Shown here in pieces: positions 29,765 through 53,573 of a DNA stretch of 64,000 nt (positions are counted from its first letter, which is position 1; every line of letters starts with the position of its first letter). Source of the stretch: an uncultured Phascolarctobacterium sp. Its GTDB lineage: Bacteria > Bacillota > Negativicutes > Acidaminococcales > Acidaminococcaceae. The stretch lies in assembly GCA_949285135.1 (NCBI GenBank), contig CASDXO010000004.1:1-64000 (forward strand). The letters are read 5' to 3'. The notes under the pieces were generated by a model that was not told the DNA's origin, searched no databases, and saw only the letters and a list, made by a program, of their open reading frames with translations. The position numbers and the translations under genes are program-made.

Positions 29765-31822
29765 TTAAGAATTAAAAATCATTTGAAATCTGTCATCAAA
29801 CTGCCTGTCAATTAATTCTCTGAGCAGTTCCCAGTTGTTACCATGCAGCATAAGTCTTCCTGCAAATTTCCGTGCAGTAACAATTATATCGGTATCACGA
29901 ATTATATCAGCAATCCGCAAATCAGGCAAACCGTGCTGCTTTAAGCCAAACAGCTGACCAGCCCCACGCAGCAGTAAATCCTGCTCTGCCAAATAAAACC
30001 CATCGTCACTGTCATGCAGTACCTGCAGCCGCGCCAGCGTCTCGGGATTATCTGCTCCTGTCAGCAATACGCAATAAGACTGCGCACTGCCGCGTCCTAC
30101 TCTGCCGCGCAGTTGATGCAGCTGTGCCAGTCCAAAACGTTCTGAATTTTCTACAACCATCAATACCGCATTAGGTACGTTAACACCGACTTCTATTACT
30201 GTCGTGCTAACTAAAACATCTATTTTTCCGGCAGCAAAAGCTGTCATAACATCATTCTTTTCACTGTCCTTTAATTTTCCATGCAGCAAAGCACAACGCA
30301 CATCCTTCAACACGCCCTGACTAAGCTCCTGATAGACATTTTCTGCGCTGCGTACCCCAAGGCTTTCAGACTCCTGAATCAGCGGACACACGATATACGC
30401 CTGATGCCCTTTCTGTACCTGTCTGCGCAGCCCGGCATAAACATCAGGCCGCTTTTCTTCCGTATAACAAAGCGTCTGAACTTTTTTACGTCCAGGCGGG
30501 CGATTCTTGATAAGAGAAATATCCAGATCTCCATAAACAGTTAACGCCAGTGTTCTTGGGATGGGCGTTGCTGTCATAACCAGTACATCAGGAGCATCCT
30601 GACCCTTATTAGCCAAAGCAGCTCGCTGCCCTACACCGAAACGGTGCTGCTCGTCTGTAATAACAACAGACAGTTTTTGAAAAACAACGTCCTCCTGCAG
30701 CAATGCGTGCGTACCAATCAGTACATCTATATTACCCACCGCTAATTCGTGCAGCAGCTCTTTTCTATCCTTGGCTTTTATACTGCCAGTAAGCAGTCCT
30801 GTCTTAATACCAAGCGGCGCAAAATATTCCTGCAGGGTTTGATAGTGCTGTCCTGCCAATATTTCGGTGGGAGCCATCAAACATCCCTGAAAGCCATTTT
30901 CTGCCGCCTTAGCCAAAGCTAATGCGCTGATAACTGTTTTGCCGCTGCCTACATCGCCCTGAAGGATTCTGTGCATTGGTTTAATATCCTGCATGTCCAG
31001 CGATATTTCCTGCCATGCCTGCTGCTGTCCGGGTGTCAATTTAAAAGGCAGCGACTCTATCATCCTGCATAGAATCTGTCCATCCCTGCCATGTTTAATA
31101 CCAATTTTCATGCTGTCATTGCACTGCCTGTAATACAACAGACCGCATTGCAACAGAAATAATTCCTCAAAAATAAACCGACGCTGTGCCTCTTTAAGAC
31201 TCTTCCAATCCTGAGGAAAATGAATATTTTTTAACGCCGTCAGCCTGTCTGTAAAACCACACTCTTTAATAACATAATCCGGCAAGCTTTCCGGCAAATT
31301 ATTTTCCGCTTTTTTGATACTCTCCTGGATCCACTGACGCATATTTTTCTGAGTCAGATTACCACTCAGACTGTATACAGGCCATATCCCCACCAGCTTC
31401 TGTCCGTCCTCTGCCGCCTGACAGAAAACTTCTGACACCATTTTGACTGTCCGCCCCTGTTTTACCCTGCCAGTAACCAAAACTCGTGCGCCAATCTGCA
31501 ATTTTTTAGCCATATACCTCTGATTCATAAAAAAATACAAATCAGCATAACCCGTCTCATCCTGTACTGTCACAACAGTAAACTTTCTTCCCCGGCCCTG
31601 GAAGCTGTCTCTGATTCTGAATACAGCTGCAGTAAAAATCTGTCTGGCACCGTCAATTGCAAGCTCACGTATCGTCTTCAGATGGGAATAATCAATATAA
31701 GCTTCCTGCCGCGGATAATAGCATAACAGATCGCCCAGCGTAAAAATATTCAGTTCCGCCAGATCAGCGGCCTTCTTAGGGCCAATACCTTTCAGCGAAG
31801 TTACTGACTCTTTCCACCACAT
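29765..31822 (-). CDS. recG: ATP-dependent DNA helicase RecG
   Basis: 685 aa. Branch-migrates stalled forks and Holliday junctions. The N-terminal LKGIGPKKA and an OB-fold wedge (about 60-150) bind DNA. The helicase core has GDVGSGKT (Walker A), DEQHRFG (motif II), TATPIPRTL (III) and QLRGRVGRG (VI), and it ends in the RecG-specific domain. The start ATG follows AAGGCAGG. The gene is divergent from rpmB across a 112-base gap and upstream of the TVP38 gene. Confidence 0.97.
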   Translation of the reverse strand: MWWKESVTSLKGIGPKKAADLAELNIFTLGDLLCYYPRQEAYIDYSHLKTIRELAIDGARQIFTAAVFRIRDSFQGRGRKFTVVTVQDETGYADLYFFMNQRYMAKKLQIGARVLVTGRVKQGRTVKMVSEVFCQAAEDGQKLVGIWPVYSLSGNLTQKNMRQWIQESIKKAENNLPESLPDYVIKECGFTDRLTALKNIHFPQDWKSLKEAQRRFIFEELFLLQCGLLYYRQCNDSMKIGIKHGRDGQILCRMIESLPFKLTPGQQQAWQEISLDMQDIKPMHRILQGDVGSGKTVISALALAKAAENGFQGCLMAPTEILAGQHYQTLQEYFAPLGIKTGLLTGSIKAKDRKELLHELAVGNIDVLIGTHALLQEDVVFQKLSVVITDEQHRFGVGQRAALANKGQDAPDVLVMTATPIPRTLALTVYGDLDISLIKNRPPGRKKVQTLCYTEEKRPDVYAGLRRQVQKGHQAYIVCPLIQESESLGVRSAENVYQELSQGVLKDVRCALLHGKLKDSEKNDVMTAFAAGKIDVLVSTTVIEVGVNVPNAVLMVVENSERFGLAQLHQLRGRVGRGSAQSYCVLLTGADNPETLARLQVLHDSDDGFYLAEQDLLLRGAGQLFGLKQHGLPDLRIADIIRDTDIIVTARKFAGRLMLHGNNWELLRELIDRQFDDRFQMIFNS

Positions 31823-31850
31823 AAATTATCTTACCTGCCTTAAAATTTAC

Positions 31851-31879
31851 TTGCTTTTATCGTTTGTTTATGATATGAT
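31851..31879 (+). promoter_or_regulatory. Promoter of rpmB
   Basis: -35 TTGCTT (31851-31856), a 17-base spacer and -10 TATGAT (31874-31879). Confidence 0.65.
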
Positions 31880-31934
31880 ACTTTTGTTAAATTTGATGCA
31901 ATGTGCCTTAATACGTTCAAGGAGGTGGGAATTC

Positions 31935-32126
31935 ATGGCATCTATTTGCGAAGTTTGCGGTAAAGGAAAACTCGCTGGCAACAACGTCAGCCACTCCAAT
32001 AGACACACTAAACGTGCTTGGAAACCTAACATTCAACAAGTAAGAGCAGTTGTAGAAGGTTCTGTTAAACGTATTAACGTTTGCACCCGCTGCCTGCGTT
32101 CCGGTAAAGTTAACCGCGCTATGTAA
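31935..32126 (+). CDS. rpmB: 50S ribosomal protein L28
   Basis: 63 aa. A structural protein of the large ribosomal subunit. MASICEVCGKGK, SHSNRHTKRAWKPN and VCTRCLRSGKVNR are diagnostic. It has two Cys-x2-Cys pairs (CEVC, CTRC), the zinc-binding form. The open frame reaches back to 31851, but that part is promoter; AAGGAGGTG stands just before the ATG at 31935. A single gene with its own promoter and terminator. Zinc-containing L28 is often paired with a zinc-free paralog elsewhere, not visible here. Confidence 0.97.
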   Translation: MASICEVCGKGKLAGNNVSHSNRHTKRAWKPNIQQVRAVVEGSVKRINVCTRCLRSGKVNRAM

Positions 32127-32136
32127 TGTGAAACTT

Positions 32137-32177
32137 AAAAAGAAGCCAAATACCTGAAGGTATTTGGTTTCTTTTTT
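32137..32177. terminator. Bidirectional terminator after rpmB
   Basis: The arms around CCAAATACC and GGTATTTGG with a TGAA loop are extended by AAGAAG/CTTCTT-like pairing, with A- and T-runs outside. Confidence 0.9.
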
Positions 32178-32180
32178 ATT

Positions 32181-32582
32181 TTATTTAACTTTTGTACCGC
32201 ATTCAGGGCAAAACTTAACCAAAGAGCTGATTTTCGCTCCGCATTGAGGGCATAAGATAAAAGCTCTGTATTCACGCAGCTTGTTTTCAAACAAGTCGTA
32301 GAAAAGATTTACTTCTTTGGTTTCTCTCTTCCAGTTATAAATCTGCAGTCTTTCCTTGGTAGCATCCATAATAATCTGTATGGTTTCATCATCAAGCTGC
32401 TGTACAGCTATCTGCATGATTTTCTTTTTATTATGGAAATGAATCAGTCTTTTTTCTTCATCAACAGAATCAATCGTAACTCCCATTTCATTAATAGAAA
32501 GCATAATTATATTCCAGGCAACATCAATATCAAGTTCGTAAACGCGGTTATCAAAGCAGCCGCCTGCCCCTTCAATTCTCAT
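32181..32582 (-). CDS. Unknown protein with C-terminal zinc ribbon
   Basis: 133 aa. The C-terminal ~25 residues are a zinc ribbon with CPQC and CPEC pairs. The N-terminal ~105 residues are unassigned and look like a small alpha/beta domain (YELDIDVAWNIIMLSI, RLIHFHNKKKIMQIAV) with no membrane segment. The frame begins with TTG nine bases earlier, but GGAGG suits the ATG at 32582. An extended -10 lies upstream. It shares a bidirectional terminator with rpmB. It could be a nucleic-acid-binding or regulatory protein; that is a guess from the ribbon alone. Confidence 0.7.
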   Translation of the reverse strand: MRIEGAGGCFDNRVYELDIDVAWNIIMLSINEMGVTIDSVDEEKRLIHFHNKKKIMQIAVQQLDDETIQIIMDATKERLQIYNWKRETKEVNLFYDLFENKLREYRAFILCPQCGAKISSLVKFCPECGTKVK

Positions 32583-32612
32583 ACCGTACAACCTCCAAAA
32601 ATTACTGCATTT

Positions 32613-32621
32613 ATTATAACA
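32613..32621 (-). promoter_or_regulatory. Extended -10 promoter of the zinc-ribbon gene
   Basis: TGTTATAAT on the minus strand, 30 bases before the ATG, without a clear -35. Confidence 0.5.
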
Positions 32622-32667
32622 TAATTTCAGCTATGCTTCATCAGCTGTCTGTAACTAATATGTAAAA

Positions 32668-32700
32668 AATCCCGGCAGAACATTCTGCCGGGATTTATTT
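32668..32700 (-). terminator. Terminator after rny
   Basis: The arms AATCCCGGCAGAA and TTCTGCCGGGATT form a strong stem; on the minus strand it is followed by six T residues, just after the rny stop. Confidence 0.9.
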
Positions 32701-32707
32701 TTCTATG

Positions 32708-34246
32708 CTATTTTGCGTAATCAACAGCACGAGTTTCGCGAATAATTACTACCTTAATCTGACCGGGATATTCCATCTCGGCTTCAATCTTTTTAGAAAT
32801 ATCACGTGCCAGTAAAACAGCGGAAGCATCATCAATCACATCCGGTTTTACCATGATACGGATTTCGCGGCCGGCCTGCACGGCATAGCATTTTTCAACA
32901 CCCTCAAAAGATTCAGAAATCTCTTCCAATCGAGTTAAACGTTTCAAATAACTTTCAAGAGTTTCACGTCTTGCACCCGGGCGGGCAGCAGAAACCGCAT
33001 CAGCAGCTGCAACAAGAACAGCTTCAACGCTCTTGGGCTCTACATCGCCGTGATGAGCCATAATTGCGTTAATAACCAGCTCGGATTCACGGAATTTCTT
33101 GGCAATTTCCGCACCGATTTCAATATGAGATCCTTCCATTTCATGGTCAATAGCTTTACCAATATCATGCAAAAGACCTGCACGTTTAGCCAGAACAACA
33201 TCCACACCCAGTTCAGAAGCCATAATGCCAGCCAGACTGGCAACTTCAACAGAATGATTAAGTACATTCTGCCCATAACTGGTACGATATTTTAAACGTC
33301 CCAGCAATTTGATAAGCTCAGGATGCAGTCCATGCACACCAACAGTGAAGGTAGCCTGTTCACCGGCTTCCTTAATTTTCTGTTCCACTTCTTTCTGAGC
33401 TTTTTCAACCATTTCTTCTATGCGAGAAGGATGAATTCTGCCATCATTAATCAGTTTTTCCAGTGCAATGCGTGCAACCTCACGACGTACCGGATCAAAG
33501 CCGGAAATAATAACAGCCTCCGGAGTATCGTCAATAATAAGATCAATACCTGTAAGTGTTTCCAGAGTTCTGATGTTCCTGCCCTCTCGACCGATAATGC
33601 GACCCTTCATTTCATCATTGGGCAATCCTACTACAGAAACAGTCGTCTCTGCAACATGATCAGCTGCACAGCGCTGAATAGCAAGAGAAATTATTTCACG
33701 AGCCTTTTTGTCAGCCTCGTCTTTAGCCTGTTGCTCCAAATCTTTTATGAGCATTGCAGACTCATGCTTTACTTCATCCTCCAGAGATGCCAGCAGCTCC
33801 TGCTTAGCCTCTTCACTGGTCAAACCTGATAATCTTTCCAGTTCTTCAACCTGTTTCTGATATAAAGCATCAACCTTTTCCTGAGAAGCATTGAGCTTTG
33901 CTTCCTTAGAAGCCAGTTTTTCTTCTTTTCTTTCAAAAGAATCAATCTTTTTATCAAGATTTTCTTCTTTTTGCAGCAAACGTCTTTCCTGACGCTGCAG
34001 GTCAGCACGTCTGTCTTTATTCTCACGTTCCATTTCAGAACGCATACGATGAATTTCTTCCTTTGCTTCCATCATCGCTTCTTTGCGTTTATTTTCACCG
34101 GCCTGCTCTGCATCCTGAATAATACGCAGAGCTGTTTCCTCAGCTGTAGCAATTTTCCCTTCCGCAACATTCTTGCGCACCAGATAGCCAACAGCGCCGC
34201 CGGCAATACCAACGACAACAGCAGTACCTATAAGTTCTAAAATAAT
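32708..34246 (-). CDS. rny: Ribonuclease Y
   Basis: About 512 aa. Membrane-bound endoribonuclease that starts mRNA decay in Firmicutes. It has an N-terminal transmembrane helix ([19 protein letters not shown]), a long coiled coil (about 30-195), a KH domain ([15 protein letters not shown]) and an HD domain with [12 protein letters not shown] and NAIMAHHGD. Start choice is unusual. The frame can be opened at an ATG (34282) without an SD, or a GTG (34252) that lies inside the SD. A 9-base perfect SD, AGGAGGTGA, is followed at 34246 and 34243 by ATT codons, which place the membrane helix right at the N-terminus. I list 34246 as an inferred ATT start. It has its own promoter and leader. Confidence 0.9.
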
Positions 34247-34454
34247 CCTCACCTCCTGAATACTTATTCTTTCATAAATCATTTTTGCATACTAACAACA
34301 GGCTCTTTTGCGGGCCTGTTCCAAATGTCCTTATTCCATTGAATCCTCTAATCTATATTATTTAGCATTACAAAATTCTGAAAAAGGGCAAAAAACAAGG
34401 CAACAAATACATGTTGCCTTGCCGAAAACAAGAGACAAATTAACACGATTGGAT
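34247..34454 (-). promoter_or_regulatory. Long structured 5' leader of rny
   Basis: About 200 untranslated bases between the predicted transcription start and the SD. They contain a terminator-like hairpin (34390-34421), a second hairpin with AACAGGC/GCCTGTT arms (34297-34320), and short ATG-stop minigenes. No known riboswitch class was recognised. Autoregulation of rny through its leader is possible but only inferred. Confidence 0.5.
34390..34421 (-). terminator. Terminator-like hairpin (recX end or rny attenuator)
   Basis: A 10-bp perfect stem (34396-34405 with 34412-34421), a 6-base loop and then six T residues on the minus strand. It lies 90 bases past recX yet downstream of the predicted rny promoter. 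Confidence 0.8.
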
Positions 34455-34460
34455 AATTAC

Positions 34461-34489
34461 ATTTTAATTAAATTTAACTGAAATGTCAA
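34461..34489 (-). promoter_or_regulatory. Promoter of rny
   Basis: -35 TTGACA (34484-34489), a 17-base spacer and -10 TAAAAT (34461-34466). Confidence 0.75.
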
Positions 34490-34510
34490 GATTAGCCTGT
34501 TGCTCAGACA

Positions 34511-35020
34511 CTACATATCGTCCGTAAAATGTAACTTTCCAAGGATAAAATGCACATATCTTGTTGAAAAGCCGCGTACCCCCAGAAAGCGAACCGCGGC
34601 CGCATATATTTTTTTATCTATTGGCTGCTGTATTTTTTTCGCATTACGCTGCATAAAAAGTTCACACGCTGCCTGAGCACGCTCCGCCTCTTCCTGCTCA
34701 CTGAAGCTGTCCAAGATTTCAGCCATGTACTGTTCAGGTACATGTTTGCGCTGCATTTCCGCCAGCAAATGTCTGCGCCCATAATACTTTTTAGCCAGCC
34801 AGGCTTCATAAACCCTTACAGCGTAGCGTTTTTCATCTATCAGGCCATATTCTGTCAGTTTCCTGACAGCAGCTGCAGCATATTCTGCCGGAGCTCCTTT
34901 TTGCAGCAATTTGTTCTTCATATCAGCAGCACAGTAATCTCTGTAAGAAAGCAGGCTCAGTGCATAGTCATAAACCTGCATTTCATCTTCAAATTTCTTC
35001 TTTAAAGATTGTTTCCACAT
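34511..35020 (-). CDS. recX: RecA regulator RecX
   Basis: About 169 aa. RecX binds and disassembles or caps RecA filaments. Tandem three-helix repeats are visible: [20 protein letters not shown], then [20 protein letters not shown] and further similar units. It directly follows recA, the standard arrangement. Its start is ambiguous: an ATG at 35020 overlaps the recA end by 32 bases, a TTG lies at 35044, and an ATG at 34981 begins seven bases after the recA stop with only a weak SD. I chose 35020 for its Lys-rich start; the last would give about 156 aa. Confidence 0.85.
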
Positions 35021-36044
35021 TGCCTGCTGCTTCCTCAACAGCACCTTCTGCCGGTTTTGCTATGGTCATGCTGCGAATCTTATTTTCAATTTCCTGTGCG
35101 ATCTCAGGATTTTCTTTTAAAAATTCCTTAACTTTTTCCTTACCCTGGCCTAATCGTACATCACCATAAGAGTACCAGGCACCGCTCTTATTAATAACCT
35201 CCAGGTCAGCCCCCAGATCCACAAGGCACCCTTCATGGGAAATACCCTGACCATACATGATATCGAATTCAGCCTGTTTGAAGGGAGGTGCAATTTTATT
35301 TTTCACTACTTTTACCCTTGTCCTGCTGCCTATCATATCATTACCGTTTTTCAGTGTATCAATACGACGAACATCCATACGTATAGTGGAATAAAATTTC
35401 AATGCACGACCGCCGGTCGTCGTTTCCGGGCTGCCAAACATAACACCGACCTTTTCACGTATCTGATTAATGAAAATAGTCGCACATTTAGATTTGGCAA
35501 TAAGACCTGTCAGTTTACGCAGTGCCTGACTCATAAGCCTTGCCTGCAAGCCAACGTGGGAGTCACCCATCTCACCTTCTATCTCAGCCCGCGGTACCAG
35601 TGCCGCAACTGAGTCGATAACAATGATATCAATAGCACCGCTGCGTACCAGAGCATCAGCTATTTCCAGTGCCTGTTCGCCATTATCCGGCTGAGAAATC
35701 AGCAGATTATCAACATCTACTCCCAAATGACGTGCATATTCCGGGTCCAGAGCATGTTCAGCATCAATAAATGCTGCATAGCCACCCATCTTCTGTGCTT
35801 CTGCAATCATATGCAATGCAACAGTTGTCTTACCGGAAGATTCAGGCCCGTAAATCTCAATGACACGTCCGCGGGGAATACCGCCAACTCCTAAAGCAAT
35901 ATCAAGCGATAACGCTCCTGTGGGAATTACTTCTATATTCATTTTGGCTCTGGCTTCGCCAAGACGCATAATGGAGCCTTTGCCAAAATCTTTCTCTATC
36001 TGTCGCATAGCCATATCAAGGGCTTTTAATTTTTCACTGTCCAT
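34989..36044 (-). CDS. recA: Recombinase RecA
   Basis: 351 aa. Forms ATP-dependent filaments on single-stranded DNA for strand exchange and LexA cleavage. The N-terminal [21 protein letters not shown], Walker A GPESSGKT at 66-73, [11 protein letters not shown] (Walker B) and the L2 loop near [22 protein letters not shown] are all present. AGGAGG precedes the ATG. Transcribed with recX from a consensus promoter that overlaps a LexA-like operator and the 3' end of hslO. Confidence 0.98.
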
Positions 36045-36083
36045 TCACCAAGTCCTCCTGACTTTCTGTTTTATTTATTTTAA

Positions 36084-36112
36084 ATTATACAAACAAAAGT
36101 TCGCTTTGTCAA
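36084..36112 (-). promoter_or_regulatory. recA promoter with LexA-like operator
   Basis: Fully consensus -35 TTGACA (36107-36112), 17-base spacer and -10 TATAAT (36084-36089). The spacer contains CGAACTTTTGTTTG (36090-36103), one mismatch from the Gram-positive SOS palindrome CGAAC-N4-GTTCG. LexA binding here would block the polymerase. Confidence 0.8.
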
Positions 36113-36975
36113 GGTTGCTGTTTTTCTTTTATAAGCCTGGCAATCTCCTTCTGAGTAAAAGTATAGGTGGAATTACAGAACTGACAATGTACTTCCGTTA
36201 CCTCATCCTGCTCCAGCTCGTGCAATGCTTCACTATTCAGCAGCGCCAAAGCGTCAAGAATGCGATCTCTGCTGCAGCGACATTTAAAATGCACAGGTAC
36301 TGATTCCTTAATATCGACCTCAAGACCTCTGGCAATAATCCTGATAATTTTTTCTGGGTCATAGCCTATTTCCAGCAGCTGTGAAACGTACGGCATCATA
36401 TTGATATTTTCTTCAAGCCTGGCAAGTATCTCATCATCGCAGCCTGGCATGGCCTGCACGAAATAACCACCTGATGCTATCACGTTGCCTTCTTTATCTA
36501 CCAATACTCCAAGCGCTACAGATGCGGGTGTTTGCTCTGATTCATACAGATATTTTGTCAGATCACTGGCAATCTCACCATCCTGCAGCTCGCAATAGCC
36601 TGTAAACGGCTCTGCATTCTGCAGATAACGTGTAACAATTATATTACCCTTACCAATCGCTCCGCCAATATCAAGCTTGCCTTCCTTTAAAGGCAGAAAC
36701 ACATCGTTGTTTTCCACATAACCGCGTACGCAGTTTCCTTCTGCATCAGCAACTACCTCGCCTATGGGGCCGTCCCCCTTTAAGCGTAAAGTTATGCGTT
36801 CATTATCCTTCATGGTAGCTGCCAGAAGCAGCGCTCCGTTCATGGCTCTGCCCAGCGCGGCACTTGCCAGATGCGAACATTTATGTTTCCCCGCCAGTTC
36901 ATTTACCAGTTCAGTCGTACACAAGGCATAAATACGGACACCCTCAACTGTCGCTTTAGTCAATATATCCTGCAT
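36109..36975 (-). CDS. hslO: Redox-regulated chaperone Hsp33
   Basis: 288 aa. A holdase switched on by oxidation. The C-terminal redox switch has four zinc cysteines: CRC in FKCRCSRDRI and CQFC in VHCQFCNSTY. The N-terminal domain with LGRAMNGALLLAATMK and GVLVDKEGNVIASGGY is typical. The ATG follows AAAGGAGC; the promoter TTGTAT-17-TATAAT is just upstream. The stop codon falls on the -35 of recA. Confidence 0.96.
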   Translation of the reverse strand: MQDILTKATVEGVRIYALCTTELVNELAGKHKCSHLASAALGRAMNGALLLAATMKDNERITLRLKGDGPIGEVVADAEGNCVRGYVENNDVFLPLKEGKLDIGGAIGKGNIIVTRYLQNAEPFTGYCELQDGEIASDLTKYLYESEQTPASVALGVLVDKEGNVIASGGYFVQAMPGCDDEILARLEENINMMPYVSQLLEIGYDPEKIIRIIARGLEVDIKESVPVHFKCRCSRDRILDALALLNSEALHELEQDEVTEVHCQFCNSTYTFTQKEIARLIKEKQQP

Positions 36976-37019
36976 AAAAAAGCTCCTTTCTGCAGCTGTT
37001 TTTCACAATCATACTTTCA

Positions 37020-37048
37020 ATTATATAGATTATTATCATCAAATACAA
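37020..37048 (-). promoter_or_regulatory. Promoter of hslO
   Basis: -35 TTGTAT (37043-37048), a 17-base spacer and -10 TATAAT (37020-37025). Confidence 0.65.
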
Positions 37049-37062
37049 GTTTATCTTCCAAA

Positions 37063-37090
37063 GTAAAAAGCCGGAGGCTCTGCCTCCGGC
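37063..37090 (-). terminator. Terminator of the riboflavin operon
   Basis: A 9-bp GC-rich stem GCCGGAGGC/GCCTCCGGC with a 3-base loop, followed by five T residues on the minus strand. Confidence 0.9.
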
Positions 37091-37104
37091 CCTCAAAACA
37101 AATC

Positions 37105-37566
37105 TTACATTTCTTTAAAAAGATTAACCATTTCCATAGCTGTCATCGCCGCATCAACACCTTTATTACCGGCTTTGGTACCTGCACGCTCCACAGCCTG
37201 CTGAATATTTTCCGTTGTCAGGATACCGAAAGCAACCGGCAGACCGTATTCCAGACTAACATGCGCAATACCTTTAGATGCTTCTGCACATACATAATCA
37301 AAATGCGGAGTTGCACCTCTGATTACGGCACCCAGGCAGATAATGGCATCATATTTGCCACTGTCAGCCAGTTTTTTGGCAGCAAGCGGCACCTCAAAAG
37401 CACCGGGAACCCATGCTACAGTGATGTCATCATCTGCAGCCTCATGTCTTTTCAGACAATCAACAGCACCGCTTAAAAGCTTGCTGGTGATAAATTCATT
37501 AAAACGCGCTACAACAATGGCTACTTTCATGCCTTTGGCAGTAAGTTTACCTTCTAAAATATTCAT
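37105..37566 (-). CDS. ribH: Lumazine synthase
   Basis: 153 aa. Condenses 5-amino-6-ribitylaminouracil with dihydroxybutanone phosphate to 6,7-dimethyl-8-ribityllumazine. [26 protein letters not shown] and [15 protein letters not shown] (catalytic His) are diagnostic. The frame extends back to 37683, but AAGGAGG precedes the ATG at 37566. Last gene of the rib operon, 13 bases after ribBA. Confidence 0.97.
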
Positions 37567-40623: not shown

Positions 40624-40639
40624 CATAAATACCAGCTTC

Positions 40640-40746
40640 ACCTTTTTTCATCCAGACTATACTGTCGGTACAGGAATCTCACCTGTTCATGCCTTACGGC
40701 TCGCGGACTATACCGCCGGTAGGGAATCGCACCCTGCCCCAAAGGT
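40640..40746 (-). promoter_or_regulatory. FMN riboswitch (RFN element)
   Basis: On the minus strand the aptamer shows the conserved RFN blocks in order: GGGGCAGGGTG, TTCCCTACCGGCGGT, AGTCCGCGAGC, GGTGAGATTCC, CCGACAGTATAGTCTGGATG. The closing P1 helix pairs 40741-40746 with 40640-40645. FMN binding should favour the terminator downstream and shut off ribDE-BA-H. Confidence 0.97.
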
Positions 40747-40775
40747 TATATTATGCAATTATTAGTTCTGCCTGC

Positions 40776-53444: not shown

Positions 53445-53552
53445 GCATTCTCATCTTGCGATAATTCGCAGGACTTAGCACCGTTTACAGCAGTTACTCT
53501 GCAATGGTTGCTGCGGTTTCACAGGGCCATTCCCTCCGCCGCTCTTGATGAG
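53445..53552 (-). promoter_or_regulatory. SAM-I (S-box) riboswitch
   Basis: Conserved S-box blocks on the minus strand: CTCATCAAGAG, GGCGGAGGGA, TGGCCCTGTGAAACCGC, GCAACC, GGTGCTAAGTCC and the closing GATGAG. P1 pairs 53547-53552 with 53450-53455. The antiterminator strand GAGAATGC (53445-53452) overlaps the P1 3' strand and can pair with the terminator 5' arm at 53423-53430, giving a standard SAM-OFF switch. Confidence 0.97.
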
Positions 53553-53573
53553 TAGTATTTATTTGTCTTGTTT

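Follow-up and report, generated by a model that had tools for sequence, protein, structure and literature searches.

The predicted 5' end of rny mRNA is complementary to late codons of the same gene in many Negativicutes, beside a conserved leader hairpin and a probable AUU start

The first transcribed bases predicted for the RNase Y gene rny, (A)UCCAAUCGUGUUAA, are complementary to the gene's own codons 436-441 (window 32938-32923) in an uncultured Phascolarctobacterium sp. The window is the whole stretch of DNA analyzed here, 64,000 nucleotides of contig CASDXO010000004.1 (GenBank assembly GCA_949285135.1). Judging from the comparisons with other Negativicutes laid out below, we regard it as highly probable that this self-pairing is real and that the complementarity has been selected. 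The sequence data support the pairing well. The original prediction for this locus had pointed to a promoter, two hairpins and a long leader in front of rny; the self-complementarity of the 5' end to the late reading frame goes beyond it as a new result, and a start codon that appears to be AUU, AUC or AUA is the second. The features are collected in Table 1.

Table 1. Positions of the features of the rny locus in the window.
Feature	Position	Strand	Basis
rny promoter, TTGACA-17-TAAAAT	34461..34489	-	sequence reading, promoter scan, relatives' leaders
5'-terminal leader segment AUCCAAUCGUGUUAA, seed complementary to rny codons 436-441	34440..34454	-	genome search, complementarity, fold
Terminator-like hairpin, 10 bp (12 with G-U) and T6	34390..34421	-	sequence, folding, conservation in 42 leaders
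Second hairpin, within the second conserved block of long-leader genera only	34297..34320	-	folding, 13 long leaders aligned
Shine-Dalgarno sequence AGGAGGTGA	34249..34257	-	sequence; strong Shine-Dalgarno sequence in most relatives
Probable rny start codon ATT (AUU)	34241..34243	-	8 nt after AGGAGG; conserved ATT/ATC/ATA
rny (RNase Y), 511 codons from ATT, and stop	32708..34243	-	translation, homologues
Coding-region partner TTAACTCGATTGGAAG, codons 436-441 from ATT; core CGATTGG 32932-32926	32923..32938	-	antisense search, silent-site scans

Read on the minus strand, the locus runs from the recX stop (34511) through the promoter, the hairpin with its six T, the second hairpin and the Shine-Dalgarno (SD) sequence into rny. 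The promoter is present as originally predicted, with TTGACA at 34489-34484, a 17-nt spacer, TAAAAT at 34466-34461 and 11 of the 12 consensus bases. A scan of positions 31500-37500 returned 19 promoter-like sites, compared with 12.0 ± 3.4 in shuffled sequence; one site reached a score of 12 and two, the rny promoter included, a score of 11. Among the 42 aligned leaders of the window's family, the Acidaminococcaceae, a TTGAC/TANNNT promoter-like pair lies immediately 5' of the 5' motif in 40, none being found before L018, which is cut off, and L131. The rny promoters of other Negativicutes are similar to that of the window. From the promoter spacing, transcription would start at about 34454, giving a leader of 211 nt up to the start codon, in line with the roughly 200 untranslated bases that had been counted ahead of the SD sequence. 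Elsewhere on the minus strand of the window, a perfect TTGACA-17-TATAAT (12/12) is located upstream of recA (36112-36084), and an FMN riboswitch (40636-40750, 111 bits) and a SAM riboswitch (53448-53554, 79 bits) both lie above their gathering scores.

Directly 3' of the -10 element, the leaders of most family members have CCAATCGTG or a sequence close to it, TATCCAATCGTGTTAA in the window. This seed is mostly unpaired in the predicted leader fold. In the window it is complementary to its coding-region partner at 13 of 16 positions, position 8 forming a U-U mismatch, and the same place matches in many relatives. The calculated duplex energy is about -16.5 kcal/mol versus -12.0 ± 1.6 for codon-shuffled reading frames, one of 200 being as strong. 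For five other genomes, 5, 67, 2, 3 and 1 of 200 codon shuffles were as strong; with the value of 67, the pairing in L026 is unexceptional by energy. Within the window's own genome, the seed 16-mer is found once exactly, once with two mismatches and 14 times with three. A regulon of the leader motif was rejected on this total of 16 matches with up to three mismatches, compared with 11 for the reversed pattern, and on the lack of a clear excess in the family. The complementary 10-mer occurs 107 times in the 59 family genomes, 40 of these at rny by hand count, and since the remaining 67 matches compare with 54 for the control, the partner seems to be rny itself. A local role of the seed was considered as well, with CGUG pairing to CACG before the hairpin or CCAAU to AUUGG in Acidaminococcus; such pairing is found in some genera and absent in others and is therefore not its general role.

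The codons that make up the core of the partner vary very little at their synonymous sites. In 35 motif-bearing reading frames, two more of an initial 37 having been left out because they did not translate, R438 is encoded by CGA in 33 and L439 and E440 by TTG and GAA in all 35. With a mean synonymous entropy of 0.048, R438-L439-E440 ranks lowest among 137 three-codon windows, and the nearest value of a non-overlapping window is 0.458. Under a wider definition comprising 64 motif-bearing genomes, the same codons again rank lowest, here of 191 windows (0.22; next non-overlapping 0.511). They rank first of 188 in the family alone (39 genomes) and second of 209 outside it (25 genomes), behind the overlapping TRL window. 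The pair CGA-TTG occupies codons 438-439 in 55 of 64 genomes with the leader motif and in none of 71 without it (135 Negativicutes), even though 38 of these 71 also encode Arg-Leu at the site. Elsewhere in the same genes CGA accounts for 6.4% of arginine and TTG for 23% of leucine codons, which gives an expectation of 1.5% for CGA-TTG. The synonymous constraint at the site was absent in 40 motif-free Negativicutes and 56 non-Negativicutes.

Motif and site also tend to occur together. In a table of 132 genomes, both are found in 52, the motif only in 11, the site only in two and neither in 67, the respective numbers within the family being 33, 6, 0 and 9. Four motif-only genomes (G115, G142, G205 and G087), which show apparent chance matches outside the transcription start, are counted in this table and were taken out of the duplex and permutation set. 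Genus g2 is mixed, with CGATTGG or CGGTTGG in five motif-bearing genomes and neither in four motif-free ones. Kinship was taken into account with a FastTree phylogeny of 135 genomes built after removal of the site columns, one of 136 reading frames being too short and left out, and with two motif rules, a plain one allowing at most one mismatch and a G-U-tolerant one chosen after seeing the data. Under the plain rule (54 both, 15 motif only, 1 site only, 65 neither), the site follows the motif in 5.4 of 10 independent pairs, with the opposite in 0.0 on average, namely one in a few of 200 pairings, and a median p of 0.0625. The G-U-tolerant rule (55, 9, 0 and 71) leaves no genome with the site alone; on average, 6.5 of eight independent pairs show the site following the motif, the opposite occurs in 0 of 200 pairings, and the median p is 0.0156. 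The reverse test on pairs differing in the site gave median p values of 0.0625 (plain) and 0.0312 (G-U-tolerant). The complementary arms are kept or lost together with a tree p of 0.0156 or 0.0625 according to the definition. The exceptions are G075, in which the site is lost although the motif is intact, four g6 genomes with one mismatch, and three f16 genomes and Pelosinus with a poor match. Cognate leader/site pairs have only a modest advantage over permuted ones, 126 of 5000 permutations being equally good when kinship is ignored. Position 8 covaries in G005, G040 and G041 but is mismatched in many genomes, the window included.

The leader downstream of the seed contains the perfect 10-bp hairpin followed by six T that the original prediction had placed at 34390-34421. 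Its arms CAAGGCAACA (34421-34412) and TGTTGCCTTG (34405-34396) enclose a 6-nt loop, TTTTTT follows at 34395-34390, and the fold reaches -18 kcal/mol (z -5.5; none of 200 shuffles equally stable). With its stable G+C-containing stem and immediate U-run it has the sequence features of an intrinsic terminator. It was seen by reading and folding and is absent from the output of a terminator scan of the window, probably because the G-U extension of the stem leaves too few T to be counted. The second hairpin predicted at 34297-34320 is present too, but its 7-bp stem is much weaker (-11.3 kcal/mol, z -2.5; 4 of 200 shuffles equally stable). That no riboswitch family fits this leader had been noted before, and an Rfam covariance-model search at gathering scores found no family in the rny leader of the window, while a search of the leaders of 12 relatives with E values up to 1 yielded a single, sub-threshold match. 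A known riboswitch as the identity of the leader was rejected on the basis of these searches.

The gene rny is present in 55 of the 59 genomes of the family. Fifty family loci entered the hairpin scan, of which 45 leaders remained after the motif-less L011, L024 and L025 and duplicates had been dropped, and 42 distinct segments from these 45 form the family alignment. A gapless hairpin with at least five T among nine positions was found in 35 of the 45 leaders, L023 being matched via a different, distal hairpin; in the remaining 10, all of genus g18, the hairpin has a bulge or mismatch. In the alignment, the 8-bp core is paired in 91.6% of 335 cells as opposed to 89.6 ± 0.6% with shuffled partners (one of 500 as high), and pairing falls to 28-56% when the arms are slid by one to three columns. 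Changes on both sides affect three of the eight pairs (1.0 expected; 21 of 500 shuffles as many) and 15 cells (1.0 expected; 0 of 500 shuffles). A contrary measure on the same alignment is the number of pair types, which at 9 is lower than the 10.6 of shuffled partners. The hairpin is poorly matched by L023 and L114, and genus g16 (L117, L123, L133) has a hairpin of other sequence in the same place. Conservation before rny across the family together with compensatory changes indicates that the hairpin belongs to the rny leader. Moreover, the distance between hairpin end and SD sequence in 31 short leaders is 20-65 nt and does not exceed 25 nt in 14 of them, which leaves no room for a second promoter and places the hairpin in the rny mRNA whichever promoter is used.

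By its sequence, then, the hairpin in the rny leader is conserved and resembles an attenuator. The original prediction had made its case depend on conservation of the hairpin beside rny in relatives, which is what the 42 family leaders show, and had left a choice between a terminator of recX and an attenuator of rny. Conservation of the element before the SD sequence favors the latter, termination being a step that we infer. Transcripts reading through from recX could also stop at the hairpin. Genera g1 (that of the window), g9, g15, g10 and g5 carry a second block in the stretch separating the hairpin from the SD sequence; of 13 aligned long leaders, 10 have in common ATTCAATGGAATAAGGACAT or something close to it with a hairpin nearby, whereas L023, L024 and L025 have diverged. 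In the window this arrangement common to the long-leader genera, ATTCAATGGAATAAGGACAT with its hairpin, spans 34344-34297. Outside the Negativicutes, the Firmicutes loci L045, L046, L060, L063, L068, L071 and L098 have a hairpin of the CCGAGU-CUCGG type shortly before the rny SD sequence, mostly then T, and terminator-like hairpins in rny leaders may be widespread. Leaders of the Sporomusaceae type (L037, L041, L042, L058, L168-L170 and others of 29) mostly begin with CCAATCGTG and continue with a different conserved region of 100-130 nt, CTTTTAGGAGAGC ... GGGGAGC ... AAAAGCCGAGT-ACTCGGCTTTACCC, that ends near the SD sequence and is possibly another structured attenuator with an alternative CUUUUA/UAAAAG pairing.

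Behind the SD sequence at 34257-34249 no in-frame ATG, GTG or TTG is found at a normal distance, and no SD-like sequence was seen before the ATG at 34282 that opens the program-listed reading frame. Among 150 distinct Negativicutes contexts, the start position holds ATT in 57, ATC in 45 and ATA in 31 (133 ATH in total), and ATG in 10 or TTG in seven (17 in total); within the family, ATH is found in 47 of 48 distinct contexts and ATG in one. A first count with a crude rule had covered 207 contexts, some without an SD sequence, and left 12 of the SD-bearing ones uncalled. For the count of 150 the SD rule was widened afterwards and takes the ATH nearest to 8 nt, so that the spacing of 7-9 nt arises partly by construction. 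Going upstream from the start position to the first stop, 40 of the 133 ATH contexts lack any in-frame ATG, GTG or TTG, 64 contain only a GTG inside the SD sequence, and 29 contain another such codon, which in the window is the ATG at 34282. The codons flanking the start position vary among relatives, and genus g18 loci with 15-18 open nucleotides have an in-frame stop codon inside the SD sequence. Family f30 uses TTG and family f6 an ATG a few bases further on, and these switches, together with those in single genomes, support the ATH position as the start. Most likely, rny of the window starts at AUU 34243 and not at AUG 34282, and AUU, AUC or AUA would be the rny start in most of the Negativicutes.

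Starts of the infC type likewise have a conserved AUU, AUA or AUC with ordinary spacing from an extended SD sequence. For S. aureus, the available text of PMC13009471 describes an extended SD sequence with AUA in infC, AUU in cvfC1 and AUA in ccpN, non-canonical codons that lower initiation, and infC of B. subtilis starts with ATT according to the available part of PMC6097659. The likeness extends to conservation among relatives, with the difference that the gene here is rny, which is unmentioned in the main text of PMC13009471 on non-AUG starts, as far as available. In the window's own genome, infC (L256:1466-1482) likewise seems to start at a non-AUG codon, an ATA (1480) located 9 nt from GGAGG; the case is ambiguous because an ATG two codons upstream is only 3 nt from GGAGG. 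Outside the Negativicutes, AUU, AUC or AUA is found at the rny start position behind an SD sequence in L046, L063, L066, L068, L077, L080, L089 and L090.

As the function of the pairing we tentatively prefer a clamp in cis that hides the 5' end of the mRNA, a reading to which we give slightly less than an even chance. The rny gene would use a promoter of its own immediately after recX. Its mRNA would start near 34454; a free tail, (A)UCCAAUCGUGUUAA, would come first, then the terminator-like hairpin, the remaining leader, a strong SD sequence and the AUU start. Pairing of the tail with codons 436-441 of its own mRNA would shield the extreme 5' end of the full-length transcript from 5'-end-dependent decay, and ribosomes passing codon 438 would open the clamp. 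The hairpin would end a share of transcripts after about 65 nt by attenuation and the AUU start would hold translation low, so that clamp, attenuation and start codon together would limit RNase Y and make its level depend on how intact and how heavily translated its own mRNA is. A preference of RNase Y for a 5' monophosphate and the 5' exonuclease activity of RNase J1 are described in the available parts of PMC3542257 and PMC10303841, respectively.

In favor of the clamp, both leader types have the paired bases at the very start of the predicted transcript. Furthermore, the predicted probability that nucleotides 2-11 are unpaired is 0.438 in genomes without the site (n=84; 0.58 shuffled) and 0.540 in genomes with it (n=54; 0.572 shuffled), the difference between the groups having a p of 0.004 that is uncorrected for kinship; the shuffled values come from simple base shuffles. 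Local 5' folds in L048, G188 and L219 range from -8.0 to -12.4 kcal/mol. This tendency of site-less genomes to form a local 5' hairpin instead favors sequestration of the 5' end. A rough penalty for the loop of about 1.4-1.5 kb leaves a net energy of about -8.8 kcal/mol of the -16.6 kcal/mol calculated for the window duplex, which in this estimate would be enough for it to form and easily opened by ribosomes; given the costly loop of about 1.4 kb and the opening by ribosomes, the cis clamp may be short-lived. Against the clamp, several family members also show local UCGUG/CACGA pairing at the 5' end. It is conceivable, if less likely than not, that the rny mRNA of several Negativicutes groups is self-sensing: only a complete, lightly translated mRNA would close the clamp on codons 436-441 and thereby report integrity and ribosome load, with AUU start and terminator setting the baseline and site-less lineages using the local 5' hairpin.

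Long-range pairing within one mRNA has a precedent in icaR of S. aureus, where the 3' UTR pairs with the 5' UTR, covering the SD region and affecting the fate of the mRNA; in rny, by contrast, it is the 5' terminus that would pair with the coding sequence. A pairing site inside a reading frame, conserved at wobble positions, is described in the available text on FtsO, a small RNA within E. coli ftsI that sponges RybB (PMC7815308), the partner in rny being the 5' end of the same mRNA. The B. subtilis rny gene resembles that of the window in its own sigma A-type promoter, its long 5' UTR and a very strong SD sequence, there among the strongest of the organism, and is controlled at the RNA level (PMC10303841, available part). 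According to the same text, RNase Y of B. subtilis cleaves the rny mRNA at numerous positions, both in the 164-nt 5' UTR and within the initial 100 nt of the reading frame, and the leader has a stem-loop within its first 50 nt as well as a structure covering the ribosome-binding site; unlike in the window, this account, as available, contains no terminator, no contact of the 5' end with late coding sequence and no natural AUU, AUC or AUA start, AUC being an engineered mutant. The available text of PMC11077062 reports an approximately 64-fold enrichment of rny RNA on RNA polymerase, with full-length rny mRNA there, and neither it nor that of PMC10303841 describes a contact of the rny 5' end with the reading frame. 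The original prediction had compared the leader with that of E. coli rne, in which a stem-loop is needed for feedback on RNase E (PMC10303841, available part). Both genes encode a main decay-initiating endonuclease and have a leader stem-loop; enzyme and RNA differ, and the likeness is one of function only. Autoregulation of rny on the pattern of RNase E is plausible, RNase Y being autoregulated in B. subtilis (PMC10303841). Our limited literature search found no description of self-pairing between the rny 5' end and reading frame or of a non-AUG rny start; the available parts of PMC8632094 on structured RNAs mention neither RNase Y nor rny or recX, and those of PMC2965389 on premature terminators neither ymdA, RNase, recA nor recX.

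The most serious rival to the clamp in cis, which we consider somewhat unlikely, assumes that the terminated leader of about 65 nt, comprising 5' seed, hairpin and U-run, works in trans as a small RNA, pairing with codons 436-441 of rny mRNA and stimulating its cleavage, with negative feedback as the result. It shares all the pairing evidence with the cis model, and the leader has the anatomy of a small RNA in sequence and fold, with its own promoter, a mostly unpaired 5' seed and a terminator-like hairpin. Leader-derived small RNAs exist, as with Rli51 of Listeria, where premature termination in a 5' UTR frees a short RNA (PMC11394854, available part), whereas the only recognizable partner of the rny leader is its own coding sequence, and family genomes show no clear excess of other targets. 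However, the pairing is conserved in Sporomusaceae-type leaders, of which most of the 29 aligned keep the 5' motif, and in which the downstream leader is quite different and the one consensus hairpin GCCGAGU...ACUCGGC lies far downstream, mostly followed by UUUACCC and no long T-run. In addition, the hairpin is retained in all six aligned family leaders that have no seed (L007, L008, L127, L128, L129 and L131), so that seed and hairpin are separable.

A DNA site, with an operator at the transcription start and a second copy inside rny bound by a DNA-looping repressor, is improbable in our view. Joint retention or loss would also be expected of two copies bound by one protein, the motif covers the predicted transcription start, and most of the conservation of motif and site is plain identity. 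On the other hand, the motif is non-palindromic, and its lack of enrichment in its own genome (16 versus 11 for the reversed pattern) and of clear enrichment in the family speaks against a regulator. Leader-core variants in site-keeping genomes are mostly A to G and C to U, which still pair as G-U, with the exception of G068 (ACAATCG), and the changes at position 8 are linked, with leader C and reading-frame G in G005 and leader A and reading-frame U in G040 and G041.

There is equally little to be said for the ordinary arrangement, the other choice in the original prediction, in which the hairpin ends recX transcripts and the rny promoter lies below it. Some long-leader genera (e.g., L004) have a -10-like TATAAT with a poor -35 below the hairpin, the window having only TGTAAT there, and this box was rejected as a promoter. 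The arrangement fails generally on the promoter-like pair above the hairpin in 40 of 42 leaders and on the 14 of 31 short leaders with at most 25 nt below it, and it leaves the self-complementarity unexplained. Least probable is a coincidence maintained by codon usage and kinship: the genomes are related and the tree tests rest on just 8-10 independent pairs, but the synonymous scan places the site first or next to first both within the family and in the separate set outside it, CGA makes up 6% of the other arginine codons, and the site is unconstrained where the motif is absent.

To our knowledge, how bacteria lacking RNase E set the level of the nuclease that initiates decay is largely open outside B. 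subtilis. The approach taken here, combining a 5'-end motif, an antisense search in the gene's own reading frame and a scan for synonymous constraint, is applicable to any leader. The conserved AUU, AUC and AUA codons suggest that rny starts in Negativicutes are likely to be placed wrongly in many automatic annotations. If the proposed pairing is true, silent changes at three late rny codons should alter the fate of the whole mRNA. If the non-AUG start is true as well, rny would join the short list of genes with conserved AUU, AUA or AUC starts, tying the capacity for mRNA decay in these bacteria to initiation factor 3.
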